The notes beneath the pieces are model-generated. The model searched no databases, had not been told where the DNA came from, and saw only the letters and a list, made by a program, of their open reading frames with translations. The position numbers were made by a program, and so were the translations under genes. Positions 43,347-64,000 of a stretch of 64,000 nucleotides of DNA are shown one piece after another (the stretch's first letter is position 1; every line of letters starts with the position of its first letter). Source of the stretch: Donghicola eburneus (GTDB taxonomy: Bacteria > Pseudomonadota > Alphaproteobacteria > Rhodobacterales > Rhodobacteraceae); NCBI RefSeq assembly GCF_900115865.1, contig NZ_FOXY01000001.1:124001-188000 (forward strand), given 5' to 3'.

Positions 43347-43348
43347 GA

Positions 43349-49556: not shown

Positions 49557-50060
49557 ATGCTGGGATATGTTGTCGGTCTGGGGCGCGGCGACGCGGATCG
49601 CTGTCTGGTCAAAGTGTCCGAGATGCTGCGCGAGGCAGGGGTCAGCATGGCTGGCGCGGTGCAGTTCAATATCGAGACCGATCCCGCCTACAAATGCCAG
49701 ATGGACCTTCATATTCTGACGGGTGCGGACGTTGTGCGGATTTCTCAGGACCTTGGGACCCTCTCGCAGGGGTGCCGTCTGGACCCCGAGGGGCTGGAGC
49801 GCGCAGTGGGCCTTGTGGCCAGTGCGCTAGAGGCTGACCCGCAGGTGATGATCCTGAATAAATTCGGAAAACAAGAGCTGGACGGCCGCGGATTTCGCCC
49901 CGTGATCGGAGAGGCTTTGGGTCGTGGTATCCCCGTCCTGACCGCTGTCGCTCCCGGCAATGTGGAGGGATTTCGCGCTTTTGCCGATGACTTCGGGCAG
50001 GAACTGCCCGCAGAGCCAGAGACGGTCATGGATTGGGTGCGGACCCAGATCGACGGCTAG
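49557..50060 (+). CDS. DUF2478 family protein linked to Mo/W transport
   Basis: The 167-residue protein is preceded by a strong AAGGGGGAGG. It resembles the DUF2478 family, found beside molybdate or tungstate transport and cofactor genes. The first residues LGYVVGLGRGDADRCL take the place of a P-loop seen in related NTPase-like proteins, but GxxGxGKT/S is absent, so nucleotide binding is doubtful. Function unknown. It stops directly before the tup operator. Confidence 0.65.
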   Translation: MLGYVVGLGRGDADRCLVKVSEMLREAGVSMAGAVQFNIETDPAYKCQMDLHILTGADVVRISQDLGTLSQGCRLDPEGLERAVGLVASALEADPQVMILNKFGKQELDGRGFRPVIGEALGRGIPVLTAVAPGNVEGFRAFADDFGQELPAEPETVMDWVRTQIDG

Positions 50061-50107
50061 GGTGGACAAATTGTCCACCTGATTTTCCAGAAACCCCAAT
50101 TTGTCCA
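50061..50107. promoter_or_regulatory. GGACA-N3-TGTCC operator upstream of tupB
   Basis: GGTGGACAAATTGTCCACC (50061-50079) is a perfect 9-1-9 inverted repeat with the core GGACA-AAT-TGTCC. A half-site AATTTGTCCA follows, with its TTGTCC (50101-50106) exactly 30 bases after the first one, about three helix turns. The same core occurs at 58556-58568 before the periplasmic formate dehydrogenase cluster. Confidence 0.7.
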
Positions 50108-50168
50108 TTTAGCGCGTTTTTGCGGGATGTTACCCCGTCCTGACCTAACAGACACGGTGTGACCCAAG

Positions 50169-50873
50169 ATGAATTCGATCGGAGATGGATTGTGGCAAGC
50201 GGCGCGACTCGTTGCGACGTTCGACCCTGATCTGGTCGAGATTACGGCGCTGTCCTTGCGCGTCTCGTTGGGCGCGACAGTCATTGCGTCTTTGATCGGG
50301 CTGCCGCTGGGGGCGTGGCTTGCGGTGAACCGCTTTCCCGCCCGCCGCTTTGTGATCGCGATCCTGAATGCGCTCATGGGACTGCCGCCAGTGGTGGTGG
50401 GTCTGATGGTCTACATGCTGTTCTCGCGCTCTGGGCCATTCGGTGTTCTGGGCCTGCTGTTCACGCCGACCGCGATGGTCATTGCGCAAGTCATTATCAT
50501 CACGCCTATTATTGCCTCTGTCGCGCACCAAGCGATCCGCGAGCTTTGGGCGGATTATCATGACTTGCTCATCTCGCTTCAGGCGACGCGGTTGCAGCGG
50601 ATCAAAACCCTGCTCTGGGACGGACGCCGCGCCTTGATGACCGCGTCATTGGCTGGCTTCGGTCGCGCCATCGGAGAGGTCGGGGCGATCATGATCGTCG
50701 GCGGCAACATCGACCATGCCACACGGGTCCTGACCACTGCCATCGCGTTGGAGACCGGCAAAGGGGAGTTCGACATGGCGCTGGCCTTGGGCTTTGTGCT
50801 GATCGGGCTCGCGATCCTTGTGAATTTGGGGCTGCACTTTATCAGCCGTACAGAACGGGGGGCACGTTGGTGA
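50169..50873 (+). CDS. tupB: Tungstate ABC transporter permease
   Basis: The 234-residue permease has about five to six helices and the EAA-type loop ISLQATRLQRIKTLLWDGRRALM in outline. GRAIGEVGAIMIVGGNIDHATRVLTTAI is the hallmark of TupB/WtpB-like permeases. Identification rests on the adjacent TupA-type binding protein. First of three coupled genes in the order B-C-A. Confidence 0.83.
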   Translation: MNSIGDGLWQAARLVATFDPDLVEITALSLRVSLGATVIASLIGLPLGAWLAVNRFPARRFVIAILNALMGLPPVVVGLMVYMLFSRSGPFGVLGLLFTPTAMVIAQVIIITPIIASVAHQAIRELWADYHDLLISLQATRLQRIKTLLWDGRRALMTASLAGFGRAIGEVGAIMIVGGNIDHATRVLTTAIALETGKGEFDMALALGFVLIGLAILVNLGLHFISRTERGARW

Positions 50874-51577
50874 GTGGCTGGGTGACCCTTACCGGCGTGT
50901 CTGTGCGCCGCCGTGGCCGGTCCATTCTGGGGCCGCTGGATGCCTCTCTGAACGGGGGCGGTCTGTCGATCCTGATGGGGCCGAACGGGGCGGGCAAGAC
51001 AACCTTGCTGCGCGCCCTGCATGGGCTGGAGCGTGTGAGCACCGGAGATATCCATTGGACCGATCCAAAGGACGCCGAGGGGCGAAACCAAGGTTTTGTG
51101 TTTCAGACGCCTGTGTTGATGCGCCGCTCTGTGCTGGACTGCATCGCGTACCCTTTGCAGCTCGATGGTGTGAAACGGGCAGAGGCCCGCGAACAGGCCC
51201 GCGCCCGTGCCAATGAAGTTGGGCTGAACGTCAATCTTGATCAGGCGGTGATGTTCTTGTCGGGCGGAGAGAAGCAAAAGATGGCCTTGGCCCGCGCGCT
51301 GATGCGCCGTCCGCGCATCCTGTTTCTGGACGAGCCCTGCGCGAATCTCGATGGCCGATCGGTCAAGGAAATCGAAGAAATCCTGCTGCGGATCAAAGAC
51401 GGCGGTACCCGCATTCTGATGTCCACTCACGATCTGGGGCAGGCACGGCGGCTCGCGGACAGTGTCCTGTTCCTGCATGCGGGCAAGTTGGTGGAACAAG
51501 CAATTGGGGACGACTTTTTTCGCGCCCCGCAAACGGCCGAGGCAAAGGCCTATCTTAAGGGAGAGATCCTACTATGA
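50870..51577 (+). CDS. tupC: Tungstate ABC transporter ATP-binding protein
   Basis: The protein is 235 residues with GTG start at 50870, overlapping the tupB stop as GTGA; TTG at 50867 is a less likely alternative. Walker A is GPNGAGKTTLLRAL, signature LSGGEKQKMALARAL, Walker B ILFLDEPCANLD, H-loop STHDLG. It drives tungstate import with TupB and TupA. It overlaps tupA by 4 bases. Confidence 0.85.
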   Translation: MSGWVTLTGVSVRRRGRSILGPLDASLNGGGLSILMGPNGAGKTTLLRALHGLERVSTGDIHWTDPKDAEGRNQGFVFQTPVLMRRSVLDCIAYPLQLDGVKRAEAREQARARANEVGLNVNLDQAVMFLSGGEKQKMALARALMRRPRILFLDEPCANLDGRSVKEIEEILLRIKDGGTRILMSTHDLGQARRLADSVLFLHAGKLVEQAIGDDFFRAPQTAEAKAYLKGEILL

Positions 51578-52377
51578 CATTCAAAACAGTCGTTTTGGGG
51601 GCGGTTGCCGCTCTGATGACCTCGACCGCCGCAATGGCCGAAGAGATGAAAATGGCGGTGACCACGTCCTTTGCGAACTCTGGTCTCGCGGATGTTCTGC
51701 TGCCCGAGATCAAAGAAGATACCGGCATCGAAGTGCAGCTCTTGATCGTTGGCACGGGTCAGGCGCTGGCTCTGGGCGCGGCGGGCGATGTGGATGCGGT
51801 ACTGGTCCACTCCAAAGCGGCCGAGGAAAAGTGGTTGGCTGCGGGCAATGGCACCCACCGCACAGAAATCATGTATAACGATTTTGTCTTTGTCGGCCCG
51901 CAGGCGGACCCTGCCGAAGCTGGCGCGGCAGAGGCTGCGACTGGCGCATTGCAAGCCATTGCAGGGGCAGAAGCCCCCTTTGTCAGCCGCGGCGATGACA
52001 GCGGCACCCACAAGATGGAGCTGCGTCTGTGGAAAGCCGCGGACGTGACGCCCGAGGGCGACTGGTACAAAGCGGTGGGGCAGGGCATGGGCGCGGCGCT
52101 GAACACTGCATCAGGCATGAACGCCTACATCATGTCGGACCGCGCCAGCTGGCTGAAATTTGCGAACAAGGGCGATCTGGGCATCGTCTTCGAGGGCGAT
52201 CCGGTGCTGTTCAATCAGTACGCCTATCTGCCTGTGAACCCCGAGAAGCACCCGCACGTGAAAACTGACCTCGTCAACCAACTTGAGGCATGGCTGCTGA
52301 GCGATGAAGCGGCAGAACTGATCAACGCCTACACCATCGAAGGCCAGCAGCTCTTCGTTTATAACGCTGGCGAGTGA
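51574..52377 (+). CDS. tupA: Tungstate-binding periplasmic protein
   Basis: The 267-residue protein has a signal peptide (to about AMAEE). TupA motifs are TTSFANSGLADVLLP (oxyanion-binding TTTS-like start), MYNDFVFVGP and SRGDDSGTHKME, which in TupA line the tungstate site. Strong TupA wording favours tungstate over molybdate. Two formate dehydrogenases, one resembling the tungsten FDH1 type, are close by, so it probably supplies their metal. A shortened, haem-bearing relative is encoded at 55671. Confidence 0.87.
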   Translation: MTFKTVVLGAVAALMTSTAAMAEEMKMAVTTSFANSGLADVLLPEIKEDTGIEVQLLIVGTGQALALGAAGDVDAVLVHSKAAEEKWLAAGNGTHRTEIMYNDFVFVGPQADPAEAGAAEAATGALQAIAGAEAPFVSRGDDSGTHKMELRLWKAADVTPEGDWYKAVGQGMGAALNTASGMNAYIMSDRASWLKFANKGDLGIVFEGDPVLFNQYAYLPVNPEKHPHVKTDLVNQLEAWLLSDEAAELINAYTIEGQQLFVYNAGE

Positions 52378-52401
52378 TCTCTTATCAGGTCTGGAAAGGA
52401 T

Positions 52402-52430
52402 AGCAGCGCCTCAGTGGGCGCTGCTTTTTC
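52402..52430 (+). terminator. Rho-independent terminator of the tup operon
   Basis: Stem AGCAGCGCC (52402-52410) pairs with GGCGCTGCT (52417-52425) across a 6-base loop and is followed by TTTTC. Confidence 0.88.
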
Positions 52431-52438
52431 GTGTGAAG

Positions 52439-52975
52439 TTAGCTAGTCATCCGCTGCAACTGTCCGTCGCGTTGGATCAAATGGTGCCAGCCCACGGCCA
52501 TCGCGATGTGGCCCAGAACGATCAGCGCCAAAATCCAACCCAGCTCGCCATGCCACTCGGATGGCGCCTGCATCCAAGCAATCTCAGCCTCGCGGGGGGC
52601 AAAGATGGTCATGCCCAGATAGCTTAGGCCGCGGTCGCTGCCTGCTGCCGCCAGAATGCGCGTGCCGGGCACGACAATCATCAGGGCGTAAAGTGCTGCG
52701 TGTCCTGCCTGAGCCGCAGCGCCAAGGGCGCCGCTGTGCGCAGGACGGCGTTGTAGATTGATCAGCCCCCAGATGCCGCGCAAGAGCACCAGAACGAACA
52801 ATGTAATCCCAAGGTCGACGTGATAGCTCCACAGCGTTTCCCGAAGGGCGTTTTCGCGTGGCAAAGCCCAATGAGCTGCGGCAGAAGCGAATTGGGCCAA
52901 GAAAAGCAAGGCCATGCCCCAATGGAGGGCGCGCGAGATCAAGCCATATCGGCTGGGGGTGTCCTGAAGGGGCAT
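52439..52975 (-). CDS. Cytochrome b561-like membrane protein
   Basis: The protein is 178 residues, started at the ATG at 52975. It has four membrane helices with haem-ligating histidines in RALHWGM, WSYHVDLG, QAGHAALY and LGHIAMAVGWHHL. It belongs to the bacterial cytochrome b561 group that passes electrons between quinone and periplasmic partners. Lying among formate dehydrogenase accessory genes it could serve that chain, but it is transcribed on its own. Confidence 0.8.
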   Translation of the reverse strand: MPLQDTPSRYGLISRALHWGMALLFLAQFASAAAHWALPRENALRETLWSYHVDLGITLFVLVLLRGIWGLINLQRRPAHSGALGAAAQAGHAALYALMIVVPGTRILAAAGSDRGLSYLGMTIFAPREAEIAWMQAPSEWHGELGWILALIVLGHIAMAVGWHHLIQRDGQLQRMTS

Positions 52976-53122
52976 CTGTGCTCCGATCTGTTGTTCATTC
53001 AGATAAAGCAACAGTGCACACGCAGCATTTGTTCCGCAAAGCATTGTGCGAATGCGAACGGTACCGTGTTCGGCTGTGAGGAGGTGTGGTGAAATGAGCA
53101 GGCGAACTTGCCTGCGCCGCCG

Positions 53123-53620
53123 TTAGTGGCTGTGCCCGTGATCGTCATCCAAAGAGCCGTGGATCGCGAACTGCTCTAGCCCCGCATCACTGGGTTCAAT
53201 GAACCGGAACTCTTCGCGTACGCCCGCATCGGTCAGGGAGCGTGCCACCGTCAGAACGATATTCGGGCTGTGATCGGCGCAAAGCTCTGCCATCTGGGCC
53301 AGCTCTTCTTGGGCGACGGGCAAGGCGGCCTCGACGCTGGGGGCGTTATACACCTGCACGAAATGCTGGGCCAAAGATTGGCAAAGGGCGTCGTATTCGG
53401 ACGGCTCGATCTGGGTCACGGCGACAAAGGTGACACGGCCATACGTCTCGAGCCCCAACCAGCCGTTGGCAAAGGCTTGGCGGGCTTTGCCGACCAGATC
53501 GCCTTCGCCCCAGTTGGAGAACTCAAAGCCCCCCGAGATGCACCATTCTCCGGTACGGGCAGGCGAATGGAACACGTTGCGGTCGCTTTCATCAAAGTGG
53601 ATCGCGCGAGCGAGGTGCAT
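53123..53620 (-). CDS. DUF6505-like protein
   Basis: The 165-residue soluble protein starts LARAIHFDESDRNVF with GEWCISGGFEFSNW, as I recall for DUF6505. The C-terminus DDDHGHSH is His/Asp rich and could bind metal. It is the last gene of a four-gene minus-strand operon (DUF6494, Mrp, ligase-like, this), 1 base after the previous gene. The whole set recurs in my memory beside periplasmic formate dehydrogenase genes in Rhodobacterales. Function unknown. Confidence 0.6.
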   Translation of the reverse strand: MHLARAIHFDESDRNVFHSPARTGEWCISGGFEFSNWGEGDLVGKARQAFANGWLGLETYGRVTFVAVTQIEPSEYDALCQSLAQHFVQVYNAPSVEAALPVAQEELAQMAELCADHSPNIVLTVARSLTDAGVREEFRFIEPSDAGLEQFAIHGSLDDDHGHSH

Positions 53621-53621
53621 T

Positions 53622-54353
53622 TTAAACCCTTTCGGCCAGTGTGGTCAGGGGGATCAGGCGGGTGTCTTCGCCTGCTTTCAGGATCATCCCGAAGTTTTCA
53701 TCAACGCCAAGGAAACGACCGCCAATGCGTTCTCCGGGCAGGGTCACGGCGGTATCTTCGCCAAGTTGCCAGACCAGCCCGCGCCATTCGCGGTAGAGCG
53801 TGGCCAGACCGTTCGGGTGTTCAAGCTCGCCAAGCCAAAGGAGGGCGTGCTTGGACCATCCTTCGAGCAGGTCCATGGCATCAACCTCGCCAGCGCCTTC
53901 TTGGTCTAGCGCCGTCCAGTCCGGGGTTTCCCCAGGCTCAATCTCTGCCTTGTCAGGCAAGCGCAGTGTCAGTTCGAGCGAGACGATCATCCAGTCAGGA
54001 ATGTCGTCGGCATTGAGTGTGCTGGAATAAAGTCGCATGCCGCCTGCGTGCCCGCCATTCAGGCGGATGCCGCCCGCCCATTCCAGATGGACAGCGGTTT
54101 CCGGTGGGACCAACACGCCAAGAGCGTTCTGCAGACCCACGCCGCAAGCGACCAGCGCGGACGCGGCATGGGACAGGGGTGTTTCGGGGGCCAGCACCAG
54201 CGCGGCCCGCATTCGGTCATCTGTCAATGACCAAACCAAAAGGCCCGCATCAGTGCCGCGCTGCGCCTCGGCGCTGGCAATGGTCAGAGGGTTGGCCGGA
54301 CCTGCGGCCATCCCCTTGATCAGTGGCGGAAACTGAGGCGCGACGCGGATCAT
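53622..54353 (-). CDS. Biotin/lipoate ligase-like protein without catalytic motifs (DUF4444)
   Basis: The 243-residue protein keeps the biotin/lipoate ligase fold pattern in its first 130 residues and has a C-terminal DUF4444-like beta domain (RIGGRFLGVDENFGM). The catalytic signatures are changed: the ATP/biotinyl loop GRGRRG is replaced around RGTDAGLLVWS, and the lysine motif KWPND by EWAGG in EWAGGIRLNGGHAGG. Ligase activity therefore looks unlikely. It overlaps mrp by 4 bases. Role unknown, perhaps in binding a cofactor or a protein in formate dehydrogenase assembly. Confidence 0.65.
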   Translation of the reverse strand: MIRVAPQFPPLIKGMAAGPANPLTIASAEAQRGTDAGLLVWSLTDDRMRAALVLAPETPLSHAASALVACGVGLQNALGVLVPPETAVHLEWAGGIRLNGGHAGGMRLYSSTLNADDIPDWMIVSLELTLRLPDKAEIEPGETPDWTALDQEGAGEVDAMDLLEGWSKHALLWLGELEHPNGLATLYREWRGLVWQLGEDTAVTLPGERIGGRFLGVDENFGMILKAGEDTRLIPLTTLAERV

Positions 54354-55414
54354 GCGTTGCCGTCCGCAATCAGTTGCTTGGCAATTCCGCGGAAGACTTG
54401 GGCCTGCGGGCTGTCGGGCTGGCTGACCACAATCGGAGCGCCGCCATCAGAGGCCGTCCGGATGTCGAGATGAAGCGGCACTTCGGCCAGCAGGGGCACG
54501 CCCATCTTCTCGGCTTGCTTGGCAACGCCGCCATGACCAAAGATGTGCTCTTCGTGGCCGCAGTTCGAGCAGATGTGCGTGCTCATATTCTCGATCAAGC
54601 CATAGATCGGCACGTTCAGCTTGTTGAACATGTCGATCCCCTTGCGGGCGTCGAGCAGCGCAATGTCTTGCGGGGTCGAGACCACGATCGCGCCGTTCAG
54701 GTGCGTCTTCTGCGCGAGGGTCATTTGCACGTCACCAGTGCCCGGCGGTAGGTCCACGATCAGGACGTCCAAGGCGCCCCACTGCACTTGGAACAACATC
54801 TGCTGCAGTGCGCCCATCAGCATCGGACCACGCCAGACGACAGCTTCGTCCTCTTGAGTCATCAGACCCAGCGACATCATGGTGACGCCGTGGTTGCGCA
54901 GGGGCAGGATAGTTTTGTTGTCGGGCGAGGCCGGGCGGCCCGTGACCCCCAGCATCCGCGGCTGGCTGGGACCATAGACGTCGGCATCCAAGAGCCCGAC
55001 TTTGCGCCCTTCGGCGGCCAGAGCGGTGGCGATGTTGGCGGACACGGTGGATTTGCCCACGCCGCCCTTGCCCGAGGCTATGGCGATGATGCGCGCCACA
55101 CCGGGCACGGCTTCGGGACCTGCGGGCTTGGGACGGGCGGTGCCCTTGAGTTCTGGCGGCTTTGGCGCTGCCGAGTGGGCGGTCATTGCGACCGACACCT
55201 TGTCGATTCCCAGCGATTTCAGTTTGGCCTCGGCTTCGGCCCGAGCCTTTTCCATCGGGTCGGCTTTCGCAGGGTCAATTTCCATGACAAAGCGCACGCC
55301 GTTTTCGTCCACTGTCAGCGCGCGGACCAGACCTGCGGCCACAAGATCGTTGCCGGTGACCGGATCTTTGACGGTTTTCAGGGCGTTCAGAACGTCCTCG
55401 CGGGTCACGCTCAT
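54350..55414 (-). CDS. mrp: Mrp/ApbC iron-sulfur cluster carrier ATPase
   Basis: The 354-residue protein has an N-terminal DUF59/MIP18 domain (about 1-85), then a deviant Walker A ASGKGGVGKSTVSANIA, DADVYGPSQPRMLG, VDLPPGTGD and the metal-binding CSNCG with HIFGHGG. Such proteins bind and hand over 4Fe-4S clusters. Both formate dehydrogenases and the polyferredoxin in this region need many such clusters. It overlaps DUF6494 and the ligase-like gene by 4 bases each. Confidence 0.9.
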   Translation of the reverse strand: MSVTREDVLNALKTVKDPVTGNDLVAAGLVRALTVDENGVRFVMEIDPAKADPMEKARAEAEAKLKSLGIDKVSVAMTAHSAAPKPPELKGTARPKPAGPEAVPGVARIIAIASGKGGVGKSTVSANIATALAAEGRKVGLLDADVYGPSQPRMLGVTGRPASPDNKTILPLRNHGVTMMSLGLMTQEDEAVVWRGPMLMGALQQMLFQVQWGALDVLIVDLPPGTGDVQMTLAQKTHLNGAIVVSTPQDIALLDARKGIDMFNKLNVPIYGLIENMSTHICSNCGHEEHIFGHGGVAKQAEKMGVPLLAEVPLHLDIRTASDGGAPIVVSQPDSPQAQVFRGIAKQLIADGNA

Positions 55415-55608
55415 GCTTGCTTTCCTTTGATTTCGCCAGTGACAACGTGTTCAACACCCAGATCCTCGATGGTCATGACCACCTTGATCTGCCGTGCCTT
55501 TGACGGATCTACGCCCTCGGCGCGCAGGGCTTCTTCGATGGCCTGCTGCGAGGTCACACCGACCTGCTTGAGAAATTTGCGGATCGACATGTTAAGATCG
55601 TCATCCAT
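55411..55608 (-). CDS. DUF6494 small protein
   Basis: The 65-residue protein (MDDDLNMSIRKFLKQVGVTSQQ at its start) resembles the DUF6494 family. It is first in the minus-strand operon and overlaps mrp as ATGA, suggesting a joint role with the Fe-S carrier. No catalytic motif. Function unknown. Confidence 0.65.
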   Translation of the reverse strand: MDDDLNMSIRKFLKQVGVTSQQAIEEALRAEGVDPSKARQIKVVMTIEDLGVEHVVTGEIKGKQA

Positions 55609-55670
55609 TGGCGTCTCCTGTTCGTTTCAATTTCCGTTGACCCAAGGGCGCGGCGGTCCATACTTGGTCC

Positions 55671-56411
55671 ATGGAAAGGACCACTGGAATACTGGCTGGC
55701 CTGATGCTCGCGGCGCTGATGGTGCGCCCCGCCATGGCCCAAGAGGTGCGGACCTTTGGTTTGCAAGCCGACACGGCGCTGCAGACCTCGGGTTTGCTTG
55801 ACTATATCTTGCCGCGCTTTGCCCTCAAGACCGGAAGGCGCGTTGACCCCGACTTGGCTCCCGATGTGAGCTTGGGCGTAGGGCAGGGCGATCCGGTTTT
55901 TACGTACCAAGATGATGTTTACGGAGCGCAGGCCCTGAGCGAAAGCGACGCCGCGGCGCGTTTCTTGGACTGGCTGCGCTCTGACGTGGGCATCAAAACC
56001 GTACTGACCTATGCCGAACATAGCGGGGAGCCCTTCGCAGAGGTCAGCAAAGAGGTAGAGGCCGATGTGATCTATTTCGAAGGGGATGCGAATGCGGGCC
56101 ACGACGTTGCTGCGGCCCATTGCACGCGTTGCCACAAAGTGTCCCCCGAGGATCGGAGCACGATTGGCTCCACGCCGTCCTTCATGGCGCTCAAAGCGAT
56201 CCCCGATTGGGCGGATCGGTTTGCACAGTTCTACCTGCTGAACCCGCATCCGTCCTTTATCCAGATCGAGGATATGACCGCCCCCTTTGACCCGCGCAGG
56301 CCGCCGTCGCTCGTCCCGGTCGAGATTACCGTGGACGAGTTGAACGACCTGTTGGCCTATGTGCAGAGCGTCGCGCCTGCGGACCTTGGGGCAGAGGTGG
56401 CGCATCAGTGA
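55671..56411 (+). CDS. TupA-like fragments fused to a monohaem cytochrome c
   Basis: The 246-residue periplasmic protein has a signal peptide to about AMAQ. Residues 33-58 (DTALQTSGLLDYILPRF and on to TGRRVD) follow the N-terminus of TupA (TTSFANSGLADVLLP, then TGIEV). Residues 94-121 (FLDWLRSDVGIKTVLTY, then SGEPF) follow the TupA C-terminus (LEAWLLSDEAAELINAY, then EGQQLF). The roughly 150 residues between them in TupA are missing. The rest is a cytochrome c domain with CTRCH (151-155) and Met in IEDMTAPF. It could take electrons from the periplasmic formate dehydrogenase; whether any oxyanion binding remains is unclear. It converges with the polyferredoxin gene, overlapping by 7 bases. Confidence 0.7.
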   Translation: MERTTGILAGLMLAALMVRPAMAQEVRTFGLQADTALQTSGLLDYILPRFALKTGRRVDPDLAPDVSLGVGQGDPVFTYQDDVYGAQALSESDAAARFLDWLRSDVGIKTVLTYAEHSGEPFAEVSKEVEADVIYFEGDANAGHDVAAAHCTRCHKVSPEDRSTIGSTPSFMALKAIPDWADRFAQFYLLNPHPSFIQIEDMTAPFDPRRPPSLVPVEITVDELNDLLAYVQSVAPADLGAEVAHQ

Positions 56412-58354
56412 TCGCGGCGCTTGAGGTAGTCGTCAGTGGTGCGAACGCGTGGGCGCTCTGCCGAGGCAAAGGGATTTGACTCGTTGTGATACTGGGCCTG
56501 AATGCGGCAGGTGTCACACATCTGGATCAGACGACCCGCGCCATTGCCTTCGAACATGGAATGCTTGCCTTCGAGCTTTTGCATGATCTTTTCGACCGTG
56601 GATTTCACGCCAAAGGGCTTGTTGCACTCAATGCAGCAGAAGGGCTCTTCTTCGTTCAGGGTGACCAGCTTCATCGCCTCGTCCGAAGGATTGAAGCGCG
56701 GCTCTAGCGTGATCGCCTGCTCGGGGCAAATGGTAGCGCAGATGCCGCATTGCAGGCAGGCGTCCTCTTGGAAACGCAGCTCGGGTTTGTCAGGGTTGTC
56801 CACCAGTGCGCCCGAAGGGCAGAGCGAGACGCAGGACAGGCACAGGGTACACGCGTCCTTGTTCACGACGGTCGCGCCATAGGGCGCTCCGGCGGGCAAA
56901 GCGACCGGCGCGTCGTCGTCCAATAGGGATTTCGCGGCCACGCGCGCGACTTGGCGGCGGTCACCCATCATCAACTTTGGCGCGACATCGAGGGGCGTGA
57001 TTTCAGCATCATAGAGTGCACTGCTCAGGCCGTCCGGTGTTTCTGCATCAATCATAGAGAGACGATCATCGCCGCCCATGGCGTTCGCCAATGCGATCTC
57101 GCGCTCGATGGGGTCACGCTCGGTGCGGGGGCTTGGTAGGATCTGAACGCTCGCAAATCCGCTGACCAGCGCGGCCAGCATTTCTGCGTGTCCAAACTCG
57201 GCCAGCGCGGCAATCGAAAGGGGGATCACGTCAGCGGGCAGGCCACGGTCAAACCGCGCCGCGAGGCTGATCATCTCGGCCCCGTGGGTGTCGTCGTGGA
57301 CCAGTAGGCGGGGCGCTTTGCCGCCGGCCTTGGCATAGGTTTCGGCTAGCGTGCGGACGCGGGTCAGAATGTGGCTGACAGGCGGGGCGTCGTACTTGAT
57401 CGCTCCCGATGGGCACAGGGACGCACAGGCGCCGCATCCTGCGCAGACCATCGGGTCCACATCCACATGTTCGCCCGCGGGAAAGATTGCGCCGGTCGGA
57501 CAGATGTCCAAGCAGCGAGTACAGCCGGTTTGCTCGGCGCGGGAGTGGGCGCACAGATGGGGCTCTAGCGACAAGTAGAGTGTTTTTTCAAAGGTGCCCA
57601 CTAGATCGCGTGCCTGCGTGACGACCTCTGCCACCGCAGGTTGGCTGCCCGGATCAGCGCGCAGGTAGCCATCGCGTTTATGCGGCGCAGGGAAGAGCGA
57701 CGTTTGACCGCTAAGGTCGACGATCACATCGCACTGAGTCTCAGCACCGTCGCGCGGCGCCGTCAGAGCAAAGCCGCCGCGGCCCGATGGGTCGATCATC
57801 TGGAACTGATCAATCCGCAGCTTGAAGTCGCCAAAGCTGCCAGTCGCTTTGGCTAATTTGCCCCGTACAACTTCATAGGCGCGTGTTAGCGGCAGTTCCG
57901 CATCATCGGTCAGCAGAACAGTCACGGCCAAGGTCTCTGACAGCTTGTCCGCCGCAGGCAAGGCCACGGCGCCCGCGCCAATGATCAGGCACATGCCCTC
58001 TGACGTCACATCAATGGTCTTGGTTGCGGGGGCGGGCGCTAGCGCCTCTGCCACCAGCGCGGCCATTTTGGGGCTGGCGTCATTTTCATCATTCCAGCCC
58101 GCGCGGTCGCGAATGTCGACGAAAAGTGGCACCTCGGCTGACAATTCAGTTGCCAGTTCTTCGAACCTTTGGGCCTCTTGCTGACAGGCGATGATGGCAT
58201 TGCCGGACGAGATGGCCTTGGCCGCGCTTTCAGTCTCTTTGGTGCAGAGTGCCGTATGGATCTTAGAACATGTCAGGCCGGTCGCGCCTTCGATACGTGA
58301 CGGATCAATCTTCTGAGATCCTGAACAATCGCACAAAATCAGTTGCTTAGTCAT
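56405..58354 (-). CDS. Large multi-cluster ferredoxin of the formate dehydrogenase locus
   Basis: The protein is 649 residues from the ATG at 58354 (a second ATG at 58357 is possible; GGGGAGAGG upstream). Residues 1-110 contain several Cys (CDCSGSQK) and 118-135 a nucleotide-binding-like glycine pattern (LIIGAGAVALPAADKL). There are four 4Fe-4S motifs: 278-285 with CTRCLDIC, 304-314 CAGCGACASLC, 502-512 CTLCLSCVSLC and 533-543 CLQCGICATIC. Extra Cys pairs CCIEC (573-577) and CDTC (613-616) follow. No leader, so cytosolic. It diverges from the DUF3305-formate dehydrogenase operon and shares its operator region. Likely an electron carrier or adaptor for assembly. Confidence 0.75.
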   Translation of the reverse strand: MTKQLILCDCSGSQKIDPSRIEGATGLTCSKIHTALCTKETESAAKAISSGNAIIACQQEAQRFEELATELSAEVPLFVDIRDRAGWNDENDASPKMAALVAEALAPAPATKTIDVTSEGMCLIIGAGAVALPAADKLSETLAVTVLLTDDAELPLTRAYEVVRGKLAKATGSFGDFKLRIDQFQMIDPSGRGGFALTAPRDGAETQCDVIVDLSGQTSLFPAPHKRDGYLRADPGSQPAVAEVVTQARDLVGTFEKTLYLSLEPHLCAHSRAEQTGCTRCLDICPTGAIFPAGEHVDVDPMVCAGCGACASLCPSGAIKYDAPPVSHILTRVRTLAETYAKAGGKAPRLLVHDDTHGAEMISLAARFDRGLPADVIPLSIAALAEFGHAEMLAALVSGFASVQILPSPRTERDPIEREIALANAMGGDDRLSMIDAETPDGLSSALYDAEITPLDVAPKLMMGDRRQVARVAAKSLLDDDAPVALPAGAPYGATVVNKDACTLCLSCVSLCPSGALVDNPDKPELRFQEDACLQCGICATICPEQAITLEPRFNPSDEAMKLVTLNEEEPFCCIECNKPFGVKSTVEKIMQKLEGKHSMFEGNGAGRLIQMCDTCRIQAQYHNESNPFASAERPRVRTTDDYLKRRDH

Positions 58355-58701
58355 CATCCTCTCCCCGGGCTGATACTGGCTGGGTGGCGCGGCCTGTCGG
58401 CGCAGGGGGCAGCTAGGCATGTTTCCCCCGCAAACGTAAAGCGTGAAATGAAGTGATTCGCGCGGATTTCCACATCAAAATTCCCGACTAAAAAAGACGG
58501 AAAGGTAAATCTGGACAAATCGTCTAGGCTAAAATTTCGACCTTTTGGGAAAACTGGACATTTTGTCCCTAGCGCTATCTCGAAACTGAAAAGCGATGTG
58601 CCGAATGCGGTTTGGGTTGGACAGCACCGGACCAGCGAAGGCATCAAAGTAAGCAAGAGTGTGCGATGGTACACCGAGACGAAGGGGGGAACATATCCAC
58701 G
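58355..58701. other. Divergent control region of the periplasmic FDH cluster
   Basis: This gap of about 347 bases between the polyferredoxin gene and the DUF3305 gene has no credible gene of its own; possible earlier starts for DUF3305 at 58612 or 58666 would shorten it. It is AT-richer than its surroundings around 58430-58600 and carries the GGACA-N3-TGTCC element and a weaker copy (next entry). Confidence 0.6.
58512..58568. promoter_or_regulatory. GGACA-N3-TGTCC operators of the periplasmic FDH cluster
   Basis: The strong copy GGACA-TTT-TGTCC (58556-58568) is an exact 5-3-5 inverted repeat. A weaker copy, TGGACAAATCGTCTA (58512-58526), differs at two core positions and shares GGACAAAT with the tup operator. 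Their centres are 43 bases apart, about four helix turns. The location suits control of both divergent operons. Confidence 0.7.
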
Positions 58702-59265
58702 ATGGCACTGATCACTGACACCATGCCTGTCGGCCTGATCATTCGTAAGCAGCCCGGCGTTACGCGCTGGGTCAAGTGGATATGGCAGCCTGTTGGGCTG
58801 ATCCCTGGCGCTGGTGATGCGGAGTGGCGCGAGTTGCGCCGTGACGGCGATACTGTGGAGTATCATGCAGCGACCCTAAACCTGACCATTTATTCGTCCG
58901 ACACGGATGCGTACCGCGCGACCCTGAACTCGCGCACGCCAAGCCTTTATGTGGTAATGAGCGATGCGGCGGATCCGGTGAATGGATGCCCTTGGACCCC
59001 CAAGCTGATCACAGTGAACGCGTTCGAGGGTCAGGGGTACAACGAAAGCGGCGAAGGCTTGGTGGAACTGGTCCCGATGCCTGTGCCGATGATCGCATGG
59101 CTGCGCGATTTCATTGAAAAGCATCACGTCGAAGAAGAGTTCATCAAACGCCGCCGCGATAAAAAGCGGATTGATCTGGTTGAGGACGGCAAGGGCGATA
59201 TCCGCATCCGTCAGACCTCTGACGTGTTCCGTGCGCCTCGTAACTCGTCGGGGAGGGTGAACTGA
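58702..59265 (+). CDS. DUF3305 protein of the formate dehydrogenase cluster
   Basis: The 187-residue protein from the ATG at 58702 has the DUF3305 hallmark near its start (MPVGLIIRKQPGVTRWVKWIWQPVGLIPG in outline). An ATG at 58666 is a possible earlier start. DUF3305 and DUF3306 genes occur together in front of periplasmic formate dehydrogenase genes in many proteobacteria. The role is presumably in assembly or regulation, not established. Overlaps the next gene by one base. Confidence 0.75.
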   Translation: MALITDTMPVGLIIRKQPGVTRWVKWIWQPVGLIPGAGDAEWRELRRDGDTVEYHAATLNLTIYSSDTDAYRATLNSRTPSLYVVMSDAADPVNGCPWTPKLITVNAFEGQGYNESGEGLVELVPMPVPMIAWLRDFIEKHHVEEEFIKRRRDKKRIDLVEDGKGDIRIRQTSDVFRAPRNSSGRVN

Positions 59266-59888
59266 TGGCCCGTGATTTCTGGAGCCGCCGCCGCGCTGCC
59301 GTGCATGCCGAAGCTGAGGCCGAGGCGCTGGAGAGCCAGCGCCTGACGGAAGCGCAAGAGGCCGAAGAGCGCGCCAAGCGCGAAGCGGAAAAGACGGACG
59401 AAGAGTTGCTTGCTGAACTGGGTCTGCCAGATCCGGACAGCATGGAGCAGGGCGATGACTTCTCGGCATTCATGTCGAAGGCCGTCCCCCAGCGCTTGCG
59501 GACACGCGCGCTGCGCAAACTGTGGGTGTCGAACCCGCTGCTCGCCAATTTGGATGGCATGGTCGACTACGCGGACGACTTTCGCGACTCTGCCGTTGTG
59601 ATCCCTGACCTGAAGACCGCTTATCAGGTCGGCAAGGGCATGATGGCCCACGTTCAGAAGCTGGCTGCCGAGGCCGAAGCCTTGGCAGGTGCGCGTGAAA
59701 TGCCGGAAGAGGTCGCCAACACCGACGAGGCGCCTGTTGAAGAGACAGTTTCCGCGGATTCGTCTGAAAACGAGCAACCCGCAACACGTGCCGAGACGCC
59801 GGACACCACACCAGACGACACGCACGATGACGACGCGCAGCCGATGCCGCGGCGTCACATGCGCTTTGTTTTTGCCGATAGCCACTGA
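59265..59888 (+). CDS. DUF3306 protein of the formate dehydrogenase cluster
   Basis: The 207-residue protein begins MARDFWSRRRAAVHAE, followed by a charged coiled-coil-like stretch rich in Ala/Glu (15-50). The conserved core comes next (LRTRALRKLWVSNPLLANLDGMVDY in outline), and then a long acidic, low-complexity C-terminal tail. This matches DUF3306. Partner of DUF3305; function unknown. Confidence 0.75.
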   Translation: MARDFWSRRRAAVHAEAEAEALESQRLTEAQEAEERAKREAEKTDEELLAELGLPDPDSMEQGDDFSAFMSKAVPQRLRTRALRKLWVSNPLLANLDGMVDYADDFRDSAVVIPDLKTAYQVGKGMMAHVQKLAAEAEALAGAREMPEEVANTDEAPVEETVSADSSENEQPATRAETPDTTPDDTHDDDAQPMPRRHMRFVFADSH

Positions 59889-59896
59889 GGACGCTC

Positions 59897-60508
59897 ATGA
59901 CGCAGGCCGCTGTACAAACCCCGCAGATCACACCCGAGGATAAACTTCGGGCGGAACTGTATGACTTTCTCGCTGCATTGCTGGCGAACCCGCCGACCGA
60001 AGGGTTGCTGCGCAATACCGCGAAGCTGACCGGTGACGAGACCGATTTGGGGCAGGGTATCCAGACGCTGGCCACTCTGGCGGGCAAGACCAGTGCAAAG
60101 GCTGCAGAGCGCGAGTTCAACACCCTGTTTATCGGCATCGGTCGCGGCGAGCTCCTGCCCTATGCCAGCTACTACATGACCGGTTTCTTGAACGAAAAGC
60201 CGCTGGCCAGTCTGCGCCGCGATATGGCTGAACAGCAGATCCGCCGTGCACCCAACGTGTACGAACCCGAAGACAACATCGCCAGCCTGATGGAGATGAT
60301 GGCAGGCCTGATCGAGGGTCGCTTTGGCACGCCCGCTAGCATTGGCCAGCAGCAGACGTTCTTTAACCGCCACATCGCGCCATGGGCGTCGCCGTTCTTT
60401 GCGGACCTGGAAAAGGCTCAGAACTCGGTGCTCTACGCGCCGGTCGGGACCGTGGGCAAAGTGTTTATGCAAATTGAAACCGAGGCATTCCGGCTCGCCG
60501 GAAACTGA
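59897..60508 (+). CDS. TorD-family chaperone for formate dehydrogenase
   Basis: The 203-residue, all-helical protein has the TorD/DmsD family block in the middle (FNTLFIGIGRGELLPYASYYMTGFL in outline) and HIAPWASPFFADLE. Such chaperones bind the Tat leader of a molybdoenzyme and hold it until the cofactor is loaded. The client is almost certainly the Tat-exported alpha subunit encoded 356 bases downstream. Confidence 0.83.
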   Translation: MTQAAVQTPQITPEDKLRAELYDFLAALLANPPTEGLLRNTAKLTGDETDLGQGIQTLATLAGKTSAKAAEREFNTLFIGIGRGELLPYASYYMTGFLNEKPLASLRRDMAEQQIRRAPNVYEPEDNIASLMEMMAGLIEGRFGTPASIGQQQTFFNRHIAPWASPFFADLEKAQNSVLYAPVGTVGKVFMQIETEAFRLAGN

Positions 60509-60863: not shown

Positions 60864-63758
60864 ATGCTAAGAAAAAAGACGAACGGAGTCGCCCGCTCTA
60901 CACAGCGCGCATCACTCCTGTCCGCAGCAGCGGAGAAATCCGTCGACCGCCGCGCATTCCTGCGTGGGTCCGGTCTGGCGATCGGCGGTCTGACCGCCTT
61001 GGGTGTCACCGGCGGCACTGTGACCAAAGCCGACGCGCAAGAAAGCGTGGCACGCGCGGTGGATACCGTGAAGTCCGTATGTACCCACTGCTCGGTCGGT
61101 TGTACCGTCGTGGCAGAAGTGGACAATGGCGTCTGGATCGGTCAGGAGCCCGGATACGACAGCCCGTTCAACCTTGGCTCGCACTGTGCCAAAGGCGCGG
61201 CTGTGCGAGAGCACGCCCACGGTGAACGCCGCCTGAAGTACCCCATGAAGAAGGTCAACGGTGAGTGGACCCGCATCTCTTGGGAGCAGGCGATCAACGA
61301 AATCGGCGACAAGATGATGTCGATCCGCGAAGAAAGCGGTCCCGACAGCGTCTACTGGCTGGGTTCGGCCAAGCACAACAACGAACAGGCCTACCTGTTC
61401 CGCAAGTTTGCGGCCTACTGGGGCACCAACAACGTCGACCACCAGGCACGTATCTGTCACTCGACCACCGTTGCGGGTGTTGCGAACACATGGGGCTACG
61501 GCGCCATGACCAACAGCTACAACGACATCCATAACTCCAAGGCGATCTTCATCATCGGCGGCAACCCTGCCGAGGCGCACCCCGTCTCGCTGTTGCACGT
61601 GCTGAAGGCCAAAGAGGAAAACAACGCACCCCTGATCGTCTGCGATCCGCGCTTCACTCGGACTGCGGCCCACGCGGACGAATATGTGCGTTTCCGTCCC
61701 GGCACTGACGTTGCGCTGGTCTGGGGCATCCTGTGGCACATCTTTGAAAACGGCTGGGAGGACAAAGAGTTCATCCGTACCCGCGTCTGGGGCATGGACC
61801 AGATCAAGGAAGAAGTCGCCAAGTGGAACCCCGAAGAGACAGAGCGTGTCACCGGAGCGCCCGGTGCGCAGCTGGAACGCGTGGCTCGCACGCTGGTCAA
61901 CAGCCGTCCCGGCACCGTGATCTGGTGCATGGGTGGCACCCAGCACACCAACGGTAACAACAACACCCGCGCCTACTGCATTCTGCAGCTTGCCCTTGGC
62001 AACATGGGCGTCTCGGGTGGCGGCACCAACATCTTCCGCGGCCACGACAACGTGCAGGGCGCGACCGACCTTGGCGTTCTGTCGCACACTCTGCCGGGCT
62101 ACTACGGCCTGTCTTCGGGCGCATGGGCGCACTGGGGCCGTGTCTGGGGCGAGGATATGGACTGGCTCAAGGGCCAATTCCAGTCCGAGACCGATGCCGA
62201 CGGCAAAGATGTCAACCTGATGGAGCGGACCGGTATTCCGGTGTCCCGCTGGATCGACGGTGTTCTCGAAGATGCCGAAAACATCGACCAGCCCGACAAC
62301 GTGCGTGCCATGGTTCTGTGGGGCCACGCGCCCAACTCGCAGACCCGTATGACCGAGATGAAAACGGCGATGGAAAAGCTCGACATGCTTGTCGTGATTG
62401 ATCCGTTCCCCACTGTTTCGGCCGTGCTGCATGACCGCACCGATGGTGTCTACCTGCTGCCCGCGACCACCCAGTTCGAAACCCGTGGCTCTGTGACCGC
62501 CTCGAACCGCTCGATCCAGTGGCGCGATCAGGTTGTGGACCCGCTGTTTGAATCGAAGCCCGACCACGTCATCATCGCGAAATTCGCGAACAAGTTCGGC
62601 TTTGCCGACCGCCTGTTCCGCAACATCGAGATGGAAGACGCGGAAACGCCCAACATCGAAAGCATCACCCGCGAGTTCAACGCAGGTATGTGGACTGTTG
62701 GCTACACCGGCCAGTCGCCCGAGCGCATCAAGCTGCACATGGCGAACCAGCACACCTTTGACAAAACGACGCTCAAGGCTGTTGGTGGACCCGCAGACGG
62801 GGATTACTACGGTATGCCGTGGCCCTGCTGGGGCACCCCCGAGATGAAGCATCCCGGCTCGCCCAACCTCTATGACATCAACAAGCCTGTGGCGGATGGC
62901 GGCTTGCCCTTCCGTGCGCGCTATGGTGTCGAGCGGAACGGCGACAATCTCTTGGCCGAAGGGGTGTCGAACCCCGGTGCGGACATTCAGGACGGTTATC
63001 CCGAGTTCACCATGCAGATGCTGATGGATCTGGGGTGGGATAGCGATCTGACAGACGAGGAGCGCGCGTCCATCGACGCTGTGGCTGGTCCGGGCACGAA
63101 CTGGAAGACCGACCTATCGGGTGGTATCCAGCGCGTCGCGATCAAGCATGGTTGTGCACCCTATGGGAACGCCAAGGCCCGTGCTGTGGTCTGGACCTTC
63201 CCGGATCCGGTGCCGCTCCACCGCGAGCCGCTCTACACCAACCGCCGCGATCTGGTCGAAGACTATCCGACCTACGAAGACCGCAAGCTGTACCGTCTGC
63301 CGACCATGTATGCGTCGATCCAGAAGAACGACTTCAGCAATGATTATCCGATCATTCTGACCTCGGGCCGACTGGTCGAATACGAAGGTGGCGGCGACGA
63401 GACACGTTCGAACCCGTGGCTGGCAGAACTTCAGCAGGAAATGTTTGTCGAAATGAACCCGCGCGATGCCAACAACCTTGGTGTACGGGACGGCAGCATG
63501 GTCTGGGTCGAAGGCCCCGAGGGCGGCAAGGTCAAGGTGAAAGCCATGATCACCGAACGTGTGGGCAATGGCGTGGCGTTCATGCCGTTCCACTTTGGCG
63601 GTCACTTCCAAGGACAGGATCTGCGGGACAAATATCCCGATGGTGCAGACCCCTATGTCTTGGGTGAATCGACCAACACGGCGCAGACCTATGGCTATGA
63701 CTCGGTGACCCTCATGCAGGAAACCAAAGCCACCCTCTGCAAGATCAGCGCAGCCTAA
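60864..63758 (+). CDS. fdhA: Periplasmic formate dehydrogenase alpha subunit (Mo/W, Cys type)
   Basis: The 964-residue catalytic subunit starts after GGGGAGG. Its Tat leader has DRRAFLRGSG around residue 29. A 4Fe-4S cluster is bound by C73, C76, C80 and C108. C198 in QARICHSTTVAG lies where E. coli FdnG has selenocysteine (QARVUHG), so this is a cysteine homologue, with no internal TGA needed. GGNPAEAHPVS and the C-terminal molybdopterin-binding domain complete the family pattern. It oxidises formate in the periplasm and passes electrons through the beta subunit to quinone or cytochromes. Metal may be W or Mo; the nearby tup operon favours W. Confidence 0.92.
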   Translation: MLRKKTNGVARSTQRASLLSAAAEKSVDRRAFLRGSGLAIGGLTALGVTGGTVTKADAQESVARAVDTVKSVCTHCSVGCTVVAEVDNGVWIGQEPGYDSPFNLGSHCAKGAAVREHAHGERRLKYPMKKVNGEWTRISWEQAINEIGDKMMSIREESGPDSVYWLGSAKHNNEQAYLFRKFAAYWGTNNVDHQARICHSTTVAGVANTWGYGAMTNSYNDIHNSKAIFIIGGNPAEAHPVSLLHVLKAKEENNAPLIVCDPRFTRTAAHADEYVRFRPGTDVALVWGILWHIFENGWEDKEFIRTRVWGMDQIKEEVAKWNPEETERVTGAPGAQLERVARTLVNSRPGTVIWCMGGTQHTNGNNNTRAYCILQLALGNMGVSGGGTNIFRGHDNVQGATDLGVLSHTLPGYYGLSSGAWAHWGRVWGEDMDWLKGQFQSETDADGKDVNLMERTGIPVSRWIDGVLEDAENIDQPDNVRAMVLWGHAPNSQTRMTEMKTAMEKLDMLVVIDPFPTVSAVLHDRTDGVYLLPATTQFETRGSVTASNRSIQWRDQVVDPLFESKPDHVIIAKFANKFGFADRLFRNIEMEDAETPNIESITREFNAGMWTVGYTGQSPERIKLHMANQHTFDKTTLKAVGGPADGDYYGMPWPCWGTPEMKHPGSPNLYDINKPVADGGLPFRARYGVERNGDNLLAEGVSNPGADIQDGYPEFTMQMLMDLGWDSDLTDEERASIDAVAGPGTNWKTDLSGGIQRVAIKHGCAPYGNAKARAVVWTFPDPVPLHREPLYTNRRDLVEDYPTYEDRKLYRLPTMYASIQKNDFSNDYPIILTSGRLVEYEGGGDETRSNPWLAELQQEMFVEMNPRDANNLGVRDGSMVWVEGPEGGKVKVKAMITERVGNGVAFMPFHFGGHFQGQDLRDKYPDGADPYVLGESTNTAQTYGYDSVTLMQETKATLCKISAA

Positions 63759-63770
63759 GGAGACAAGGAT

Positions 63771-64000
63771 ATGGCAAGAGCAAAATTTCTCTGCGACGCC
63801 GAGCGCTGCATCGAGTGTAACGCCTGCGTCACCGCCTGTAAGAACGAGCACGAAGTGCCGTGGGGCATCAACCGCCGCCGTGTGATCACCATCAACGACG
63901 GCAAACCCGGTGAGCGTTCGATCTCGGTCGCTTGTATGCACTGCTCGGACGCGCCCTGTATGGCCGTCTGTCCAACCGATTGCTTCTACCAGACCGAAGA
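63771..64000 (+). CDS. fdhB: Formate dehydrogenase iron-sulfur (beta) subunit, 5' part
   Basis: The first 76 residues are visible before the window ends. ATG at 63771 follows AAGGAGACAAGGAT. Two ferredoxin motifs are readable: CIECNACVTACKNE and CMHCSDAPCMAVCP, as in the four-cluster electron-transfer subunits of periplasmic formate dehydrogenases. It follows fdhA by 12 bases and is surely in the same operon. A cytochrome b gamma subunit would be expected beyond the window. Confidence 0.9.
   Translation, partial: MARAKFLCDAERCIECNACVTACKNEHEVPWGINRRRVITINDGKPGERSISVACMHCSDAPCMAVCPTDCFYQTE

Follow-up and report, generated by a model that had tools for sequence, protein, structure and literature searches.

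In Escherichia coli, formate enzymes are controlled by FhlA, a formate-responsive activator of the NtrC superfamily that is a one-component cytoplasmic sensor and uses sigma-54. Transporters of molybdate or tungstate come under the metal-responsive control of ModE and TunR, and the ModE operator is TATA-rich. In Rhodobacter capsulatus, NtrC receives a nitrogen signal from a soluble kinase and has tandem operators upstream of its targets. For the tungsten cluster moeA1-mobB-tupBCA of Methylorubrum extorquens, coordinated regulation has been proposed, and the portion of that report available names neither a regulator nor an operator. Here, we analyse a stretch of 64,000 nucleotides from Donghicola eburneus (contig NZ_FOXY01000001.1, positions 124,001 to 188,000; hereafter the window), in which the palindrome GGACA-N3-TGTCC lies upstream of both the tungstate-type transporter genes tupBCA and the formate dehydrogenase (fdh) operon. 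Comparison across genomes leads us to predict, with good confidence, that this palindrome is the operator at which a formate-responsive two-component system acts, and that the two genes closing the fdh operon encode that system. The sequence comparisons support the link between operator and two-component system best, formate as the signal next, and activation over repression least.

Both exact copies of the palindrome described in the initial annotation are present, at 50064-50076 upstream of tupBCA and at 58556-58568 in the divergent control region of fdh, and the tup copy does extend to a perfect 9-1-9 palindrome at 50061-50079 (GGTGGACAA-A-TTGTCCACC). A weaker second copy had been reported at each promoter, 30 bp away at tup and 43 bp away at fdh; both spacings hold and the second tup copy is indeed weaker, whereas the fdh copy at 58513 is strong. 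The four operators are the following (none has an assigned strand):

50064..50076: operator GGACAAATTGTCC upstream of tupBCA, the palindrome core
50094..50106: second, weaker tup operator CCCCAATTTGTCC, 30 bp downstream of the first, matrix rank 7
58513..58525: fdh operator R1 GGACAAATCGTCT, 43 bp before 58556, with R1 equivalents in relatives
58556..58568: fdh operator R2 GGACATTTTGTCC

The weaker site CCCCAATTTGTCC matches at 7/10 positions by hand count and resembles a form that the second fdh operator often takes in relatives, and at the equivalent offset the sister genome carries CCTCAATTTGTCC. A matrix built from the fdh and transporter operators of other genomes, with no tup sites and with this genus excluded, placed tup 50064 first, fdh 58556 second and 58513 third in the window; as a point against leaning on this ranking, it is only partly independent, its training sites having been picked by likeness to the consensus of the initial annotation. 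The whole genome (59 contigs, 4.43 Mb) holds 13 perfect GGACA-N3-TGTCC sites versus 2 for a reversed control, so that the chance rate first proposed, about one per million bases, was too low. Eleven of the 13 lie inside script-called open reading frames (ORFs), the sole intergenic ones being those at tup and fdh. Likewise, GGACA-WWW-TGTCC with at most one mismatch occurs 14 times (control, 7), 12 times within ORFs (some of doubtful validity) and outside ORFs at tup and fdh alone; as far as this pattern goes, the regulon of this genome may consist of these two. A third perfect copy in the window (30965-30977, matrix rank 9) falls within an ORF that reads as amidohydrolase-like. The tup and fdh sites are both conserved in the sister genome and likewise in many other genera. 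The window also contains an operon for an NAD-linked, fds-type formate dehydrogenase (40578-45040), in which none of the window's 15 best matrix sites falls; this enzyme is therefore probably outside the regulon here.

No regulator gene lies between the two sites, as had been noted, and ORF clustering of 20 tup regions found no conserved regulator near tup. The lead came from a relative (G038) in which the operator sits between tupB and a divergent sensor-kinase gene, adjoining an NtrC-type regulator gene and fdhABC. In the window's genome the orthologs of these two genes, and with them the likely regulator, stand at the end of the fdh operon, 2-5 kb beyond the window end, where fdhB is followed on one strand by fdhC, a small ORF, the response regulator and the sensor kinase. 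The regulator has the architecture of the NtrC family, with receiver (PF00072), AAA+ (PF00158) and Fis-type HTH_8 (PF02954) domains all above cut-off, and the kinase matches PF17202 (sCache_3_3) with 100 bits and PF17201 (Cache_3) with 63 bits. A search of genome contigs with one kinase returned two near copies, one of them in Donghicola mangrovi, which is probably the sister genome, and three weak matches; the kinase is also seen in named records of Sulfitobacter, Pseudosulfitobacter, Sagittula stellata E-37, Leisingera, Paracoccus denitrificans, Shinella, Methylorubrum extorquens CM4 and Azospirillum, among others. The stretch read from P. denitrificans contains both kinase and regulator genes, and that from S. 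stellata E-37 contains the kinase and fdh genes, with the regulator beyond its limits.

Co-occurrence at fdh supports the link between operator and two-component system. In relatives the fdh operon, which opens with the DUF3305 gene, is preceded by two copies of the motif in tandem, the 13-mers lying mostly 41 bp apart (41/43 pairs, sought at spacings of 40-43 bp only), and the window spacings of 43 bp at fdh and 30 bp at tup are variants of this arrangement. Among the first 120 genomes of the host family (Rhodobacteraceae), the kinase was found in 26 and the DUF3305 gene in 60. In the discovery set, 59 of these 60 were scored (G075 was left out of the count, though its pair is seen), and the tandem pair precedes the DUF3305 gene in 22/23 genomes with the kinase versus 2/36 without. 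Of the exceptions, G001 has a weak pair overlapping the start codon, and G098 was counted as kinase-negative but has the regulator at a contig edge. With the same settings, a held-out set drawn from genomes 120-255, which had played no part in discovery, gave tandem operators in 21/24 genomes with the kinase versus 0/31 without; 55 of 57 could be scored, leaving out G122 (contig edge) and G131 (short upstream region). Other spacings yielded mostly 0-2 pairs per class in the held-out genomes, and 31-34 bp gave 8/24 with and 1/31 without the kinase.

The regulator follows the same distribution. An ortholog was present in 17/17 chosen kinase-bearing genomes, at 61-73% identity, versus 0/14 chosen kinase-less genomes, in which the best matches were paralogs 34-38% identical and, in G045, none reached the limit used. 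Its DNA-reading helix, SRKTIDRK, is nearly invariant, G554 excepted. The two genes need not be neighbours: kinase and regulator stand apart in several host-family genomes, and in Sulfitobacter indolifex the kinase gene (L280:3659-5626) adjoins repABC on a plasmid, the stretch read there containing neither the regulator nor fdh genes.

Operators also accompany the system away from fdhABC. In 5/5 kinase-bearing genomes without a DUF3305 match (G036, G114, G222, G238 and G254), the system lies beside an OFA-family monocarboxylate transporter gene with three operators 42-43 bp apart, as does the second system copy of G002, and in G002, G036 and G254 the transporter is followed by fds-type formate dehydrogenase genes. 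No TupB was found in G114, which has this transporter-type target. In Azospirillum ramasamyi, the system is found beside fdhE, fdnGHI, fdhD and a gene for a molybdate-binding protein. Paracoccus aminovorans carries three operators 42 bp apart (L287:17690-17786) about 0.4 kb upstream of a formate-tetrahydrofolate ligase gene, near which a second loop-less regulator is encoded, and like operators occur in records of Shinella, Rhizobium, Methylorubrum and Azospirillum. Perfect AT-core matches elsewhere in relatives amount to 29 loci, often within ORFs and not counted as operators, one of which (L046) is beside a GntR-type gene. In G082, two perfect motifs 19 bp apart (L056:1501-1532) lie away from fdh and tup. 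Operator pairs were also seen near a Peripla_BP_6-type ABC transporter in G359 (L300:17342-17376) and G194 (L279:6764-6818), whose substrate is perhaps formamide or another formate source.

At tup, relatives share the element GGWCA-N3-TGWCC before tupB, and the tup-adjacent operator pairs found are 41-42 bp apart. In four further genomes the operator lies in the gap between tupB and tupC, and with this gap included a tup operator is found in 14/16 genomes with the system versus 2/19 without. Several observations weigh against our proposal. The gap was added to that count only after such cases had been seen; the region upstream of tupB by itself scores above 10 in 10/17 genomes with the system versus 2/19 without (p = 0.064, rank test on the full scores), and these counts cover 36 of the 85 genomes with TupB, or 35 when the gap is counted. 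At fdh, the held-out set includes three misses (G240, G250 and G194), and the Fisher values for co-occurrence, in the 1e-12 range, ignore genome relatedness and thus overstate the evidence. Moreover, the G194 kinase adjoins the ABC transporter with two operators and not an OFA-family transporter, and no operator pair was found in the stretch by the G071 kinase.

In the mechanism that we propose, periplasmic formate would bind the sCache_3_3 domain of the kinase, which would then phosphorylate the NtrC-type regulator. The Fis-type helix-turn-helix of the regulator would bind pairs or triplets of the 13-bp palindrome, which most relatives space by about four helical turns, and the regulator would turn on the fdh operon, the divergent FeS gene and tupBCA. 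Formate would thus summon enzyme and metal together, and the position of the regulator and kinase genes within the fdh operon would create a feedback loop.

How the regulator would act on RNA polymerase is suggested by the loop through which NtrC-type proteins contact sigma-54. Outside the host family, the loop motif GAFTGA is present in the regulators of Shinella (2), Rhizobium SL42, three Azospirillum, G592, G291, G520, G613, G359 and G554, and M. extorquens CM4 has the variant GAFTSA. In the window-genome regulator the GAFTGA loop is absent (LFG-DPNQPGSD-GLL), and the same deletion, of L1, is seen in all 17 host-family regulators shown, this one included. The fdh-linked regulators aligned have the loop deleted; transporter-linked copies of the host family have GAFPGA-like remnants, except for G036. 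The promoters correspond: a -24/-12 sigma-54-type box with 9-11 of 12 matches lies near the target gene in 13/13 loop-bearing systems, versus 0/10 loop-less systems after the last operator, where matches stay at 5-8 of 12 (shuffle level), with the limit of 9 of 12 having been fixed after the scores were seen. At the tup and fdh promoters of the window, the best match is 7 of 12 each, as it is in loop-less G194. In the ten loop-bearing systems with matrix operators, the box starts 52, 52, 52, 53, 53 and 55 bp after the last operator in six and 43, 67, 68 and 75 bp after it in the others. The weakest boxes are those of CM4 (9 of 12, shuffle p 0.055-0.08) and G359 (9 of 12, p 0.22); G554 has a box with 10 of 12 matches (p 0.012) but no operator recognized by the matrix. 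The boxes of G613, G359 and G554 were scored in hand-chosen regions, automatic scoring having found no usable region. In addition, operators are about 22 bp apart in most loop-bearing and about 42 bp apart in most loop-less systems, and RpoN is absent from 15/25 kinase-bearing host-family genomes tested, although the window's genome has it.

With the loop missing and the -24/-12 box absent from its promoters, the regulator must therefore act without sigma-54 in this lineage. NtrC of R. capsulatus, likewise loop-less, depends on phosphorylation and acts with sigma-70 (PMC10274813, available in part), and by analogy the partner of the loop-less regulator here is probably sigma-70 RNA polymerase; matches to sigma-70 boxes at the fdh and tup promoters of the window are too weak for a claim. 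We lean slightly towards a history in which one orthologous alphaproteobacterial family, a formate two-component system serving formate dehydrogenase and tungsten import, passed from sigma-54-dependent to sigma-54-independent, keeping its palindrome and DNA-reading helix while the loop decayed and the -24/-12 promoter disappeared. Two points lowered our confidence in this switch. In the regulator tree, which included the distant paralog G554_2, the fdh-linked copies group together (100/99 support) and the number and direction of loop changes are not settled, leaving the direction unrooted. In addition, a 9-of-12 box (p 0.09) is found in loop-less Leisingera between operators two and three; it went uncounted because only sequence after the last operator entered the count. 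If the switch is real, these systems preserve a natural record of an enhancer-binding protein turning into an ordinary regulator.

Activation is the part of the proposal most open to challenge, and it is possible, if rather unlikely, that the regulator is a repressor, or a repressor and activator in one, with R2 for example blocking the fdh operon from its position near the DUF3305 start until phosphorylation frees it. R2 is often 5-36 bp before the inferred DUF3305 start in relatives, and loop-less NtrC proteins can repress sigma-70 promoters, as described for Caulobacter in the available part of the source. On the other hand, the loop-bearing orthologs sit at sigma-54-type promoters, which require activators, and in three transporter promoters a TTGACA-like box follows the third operator by 32, 32 and 53 bp, a layout like that of activated promoters. 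We therefore favour activation by the phosphorylated regulator.

As for the signal, the only sequence relatives of the sensor in the Protein Data Bank (PDB) at the limits used are 8py0 and 8py1, ligand domains of chemoreceptors that we take to be PacF-type formate domains; the match is weak (E about 0.001) and counts against firm assignment. Further guidance comes from the pattern R-x2-T-x12-T, which is kept in 42/42 aligned kinase sensors and has the spacing of R142, T145 and T158 in the published PacF numbering, a comparison made by numbering, with PacF outside the alignment. Changes at these three residues altered formate binding by the PacF chemoreceptor (PMC12501870, available in part), and an sCache_3_3 chemoreceptor with the reported residues bound formate (PMC12415202, likewise in part). 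As a further point against, changing the binding arginine of the formate chemoreceptor Atu0526 raised affinity and abolished the response (PMC8698456, in part), and conserved residues therefore need not mean tight binding. Taken together, we infer that formate is the signal of the kinase. It is better supported than tungstate by these comparisons, because the domain is an sCache_3_3 with the PacF residues and because the targets elsewhere are formate dehydrogenases and OFA transporters, including that of G114, in which no TupB was found.

Operator and system could also be right and the signal another small carboxylate such as lactate, oxalate or glyoxylate, with formate dehydrogenase induced within a broader response to carboxylates. 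Several monocarboxylates are substrates of OFA transporters, and the two family members tested pass the NCBIfam cut-off for the L-lactate transporter and not the oxalate/formate one, which counts against formate. Set against this are the formate-linked residues in every sensor aligned, the chemoreceptor that bound formate through such a domain, and the nature of the recurrent targets, namely three formate dehydrogenase types (fdhABC, fdnGHI in Azospirillum, and fds behind the transporter) and the P. aminovorans formate-tetrahydrofolate ligase. Another carboxylate thus seems improbable.

Still less probable is that an unlinked regulator, such as a tungstate or molybdate sensor, binds the motif and that the two-component genes are mere passengers of the fdh operon. 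Since these genes sit inside the regulated operon, they would co-occur with the operator in any case. The initial annotation had held that its motif would fall if it were not conserved at orthologous operons; among 114 fdh operons scored, 67 come from kinase-less genomes, and 65 of these are without the tandem operator; the regulator-bearing G098 is one of the remaining two. Furthermore, operator and system also go together at transporter operons that have no DUF3305 match and in other taxonomic orders, and the helix-turn-helix is conserved together with the operator. That chance alone placed these palindromes in AT-rich intergenic DNA at both window loci is very unlikely: the genome does hold its 13 perfect copies mostly in genes, but no other intergenic copy of this kind was found there, both sites recur in the sister genome and in many genera, and at fdh the tandem arrangement separated the held-out genomes at 21/24 versus 0/31.

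The genes of the two loci, in window coordinates, are these:

49557..50060, plus strand: DUF2478 gene directly upstream of the tup operator (Pfam PF10649)
50169..50873, plus strand: tupB, tungstate-type ABC permease (passes NCBIfam NF038017; NF041773 TupB 177 of 320 bits, below the equivalog cut-off)
50867..51577, plus strand: tupC, ABC ATPase (an ORF named by position and from the initial annotation)
51574..52377, plus strand: tupA, periplasmic oxyanion-binding protein (best model NF041772 TupA, 195 of 400 bits, below cut-off)
56405..58351, minus strand: 4Fe-4S protein gene, divergent from the fdh operon across the operators (Pfam Fer4 families; start codon chosen by hand)
58612..59265, plus strand: DUF3305 gene, opens the fdh operon (PF11749; the true start may be farther downstream)
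59265..59888, plus strand: DUF3306 gene (PF11748)
59897..60508, plus strand: TorD-type chaperone gene (ORF; gene order as annotated in Sagittula stellata E-37)
60864..63758, plus strand: fdhA, formate dehydrogenase catalytic subunit (best model TIGR01591 Fdh-alpha, 484 bits against a cut-off of 666; the syntenic Sagittula annotation agrees)
63771..64000, plus strand: fdhB, truncated by the window end
65884-67260 (C25:189884-191260), plus strand, beyond the window: response regulator gene (Pfam)
about 67253-69253, plus strand, beyond the window: sensor kinase gene (Pfam)

TupA and TupB both score under their equivalog cut-offs, so that tungstate rather than molybdate, though the likely substrate, is not certain, which tells against the tungsten side of our proposal. 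Two motif-like sites 44 bp apart (49563-49575 and 49607-49619) are found where the DUF2478 gene begins, near a divergent fdhD start; the 49607 site has matrix rank 5 in the window, and GGTCAAAGTGTCC is retained in the sister genome. This pair is possibly a further operator for fdhD, or else coding constraint.

The suggestion with which the analysis began, an undescribed regulator controlling metal uptake and metalloenzyme together, thus finds support in comparative evidence for a shared operator and one putative two-component system. Among the top matches in the open-access literature we found no described formate-sensing histidine kinase, and no formate-sensing two-component system or regulator of fdh and tungstate uptake of this sort. 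The parts are of known kinds (an NtrC-type regulator, a Cache sensor and formate control of formate dehydrogenase), and what appears to be new is how they are combined, together with the tungsten link and the switch away from sigma-54. Our analysis proposes a formate-sensing histidine kinase and, with orthologs that have or lack the sigma-54 loop at promoters that match, makes the loss of sigma-54 dependence in enhancer-binding proteins directly testable. Formate dehydrogenases with tungsten or molybdenum are wanted for CO2 reduction, and their yield hinges on metal supply; one signal that opens metal uptake and the enzyme genes would explain how both are matched and could offer a handle for production strains.

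Finally, each of the closest described systems shares some of these features. The ModE operator, as judged from its TATA-rich consensus, differs from GGACA-N3-TGTCC, and the candidate regulator here is NtrC-type. As in the M. extorquens tungsten cluster, moeA and mobB seem, by reading of the ORFs, to adjoin tupBCA in the window too. Like the PacF/McpF chemoreceptors (Cache_3-Cache_2) and the sCache_3_3 gut chemoreceptor, as far as the partly available reports go, the kinase has a ligand domain of these Pfam families and the three formate-linked residues; unlike PacF and McpF, which steer motility, its domain would drive a histidine kinase and gene expression. In contrast to FhlA, the system described here is two-component, would sense formate in the periplasm and has no sigma-54 contact loop in this lineage. 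NtrB-NtrC of R. capsulatus, in the part of the source available, shares with it the receiver, AAA+ and Fis-type helix-turn-helix domains and the deletion of the L1 loop, and tandem operators upstream of targets are common to both; what sets the present system apart is a membrane kinase with an sCache_3_3 domain, a regulon putatively devoted to formate, and the retention of both the loop and sigma-54-type promoters by orthologs from other families.

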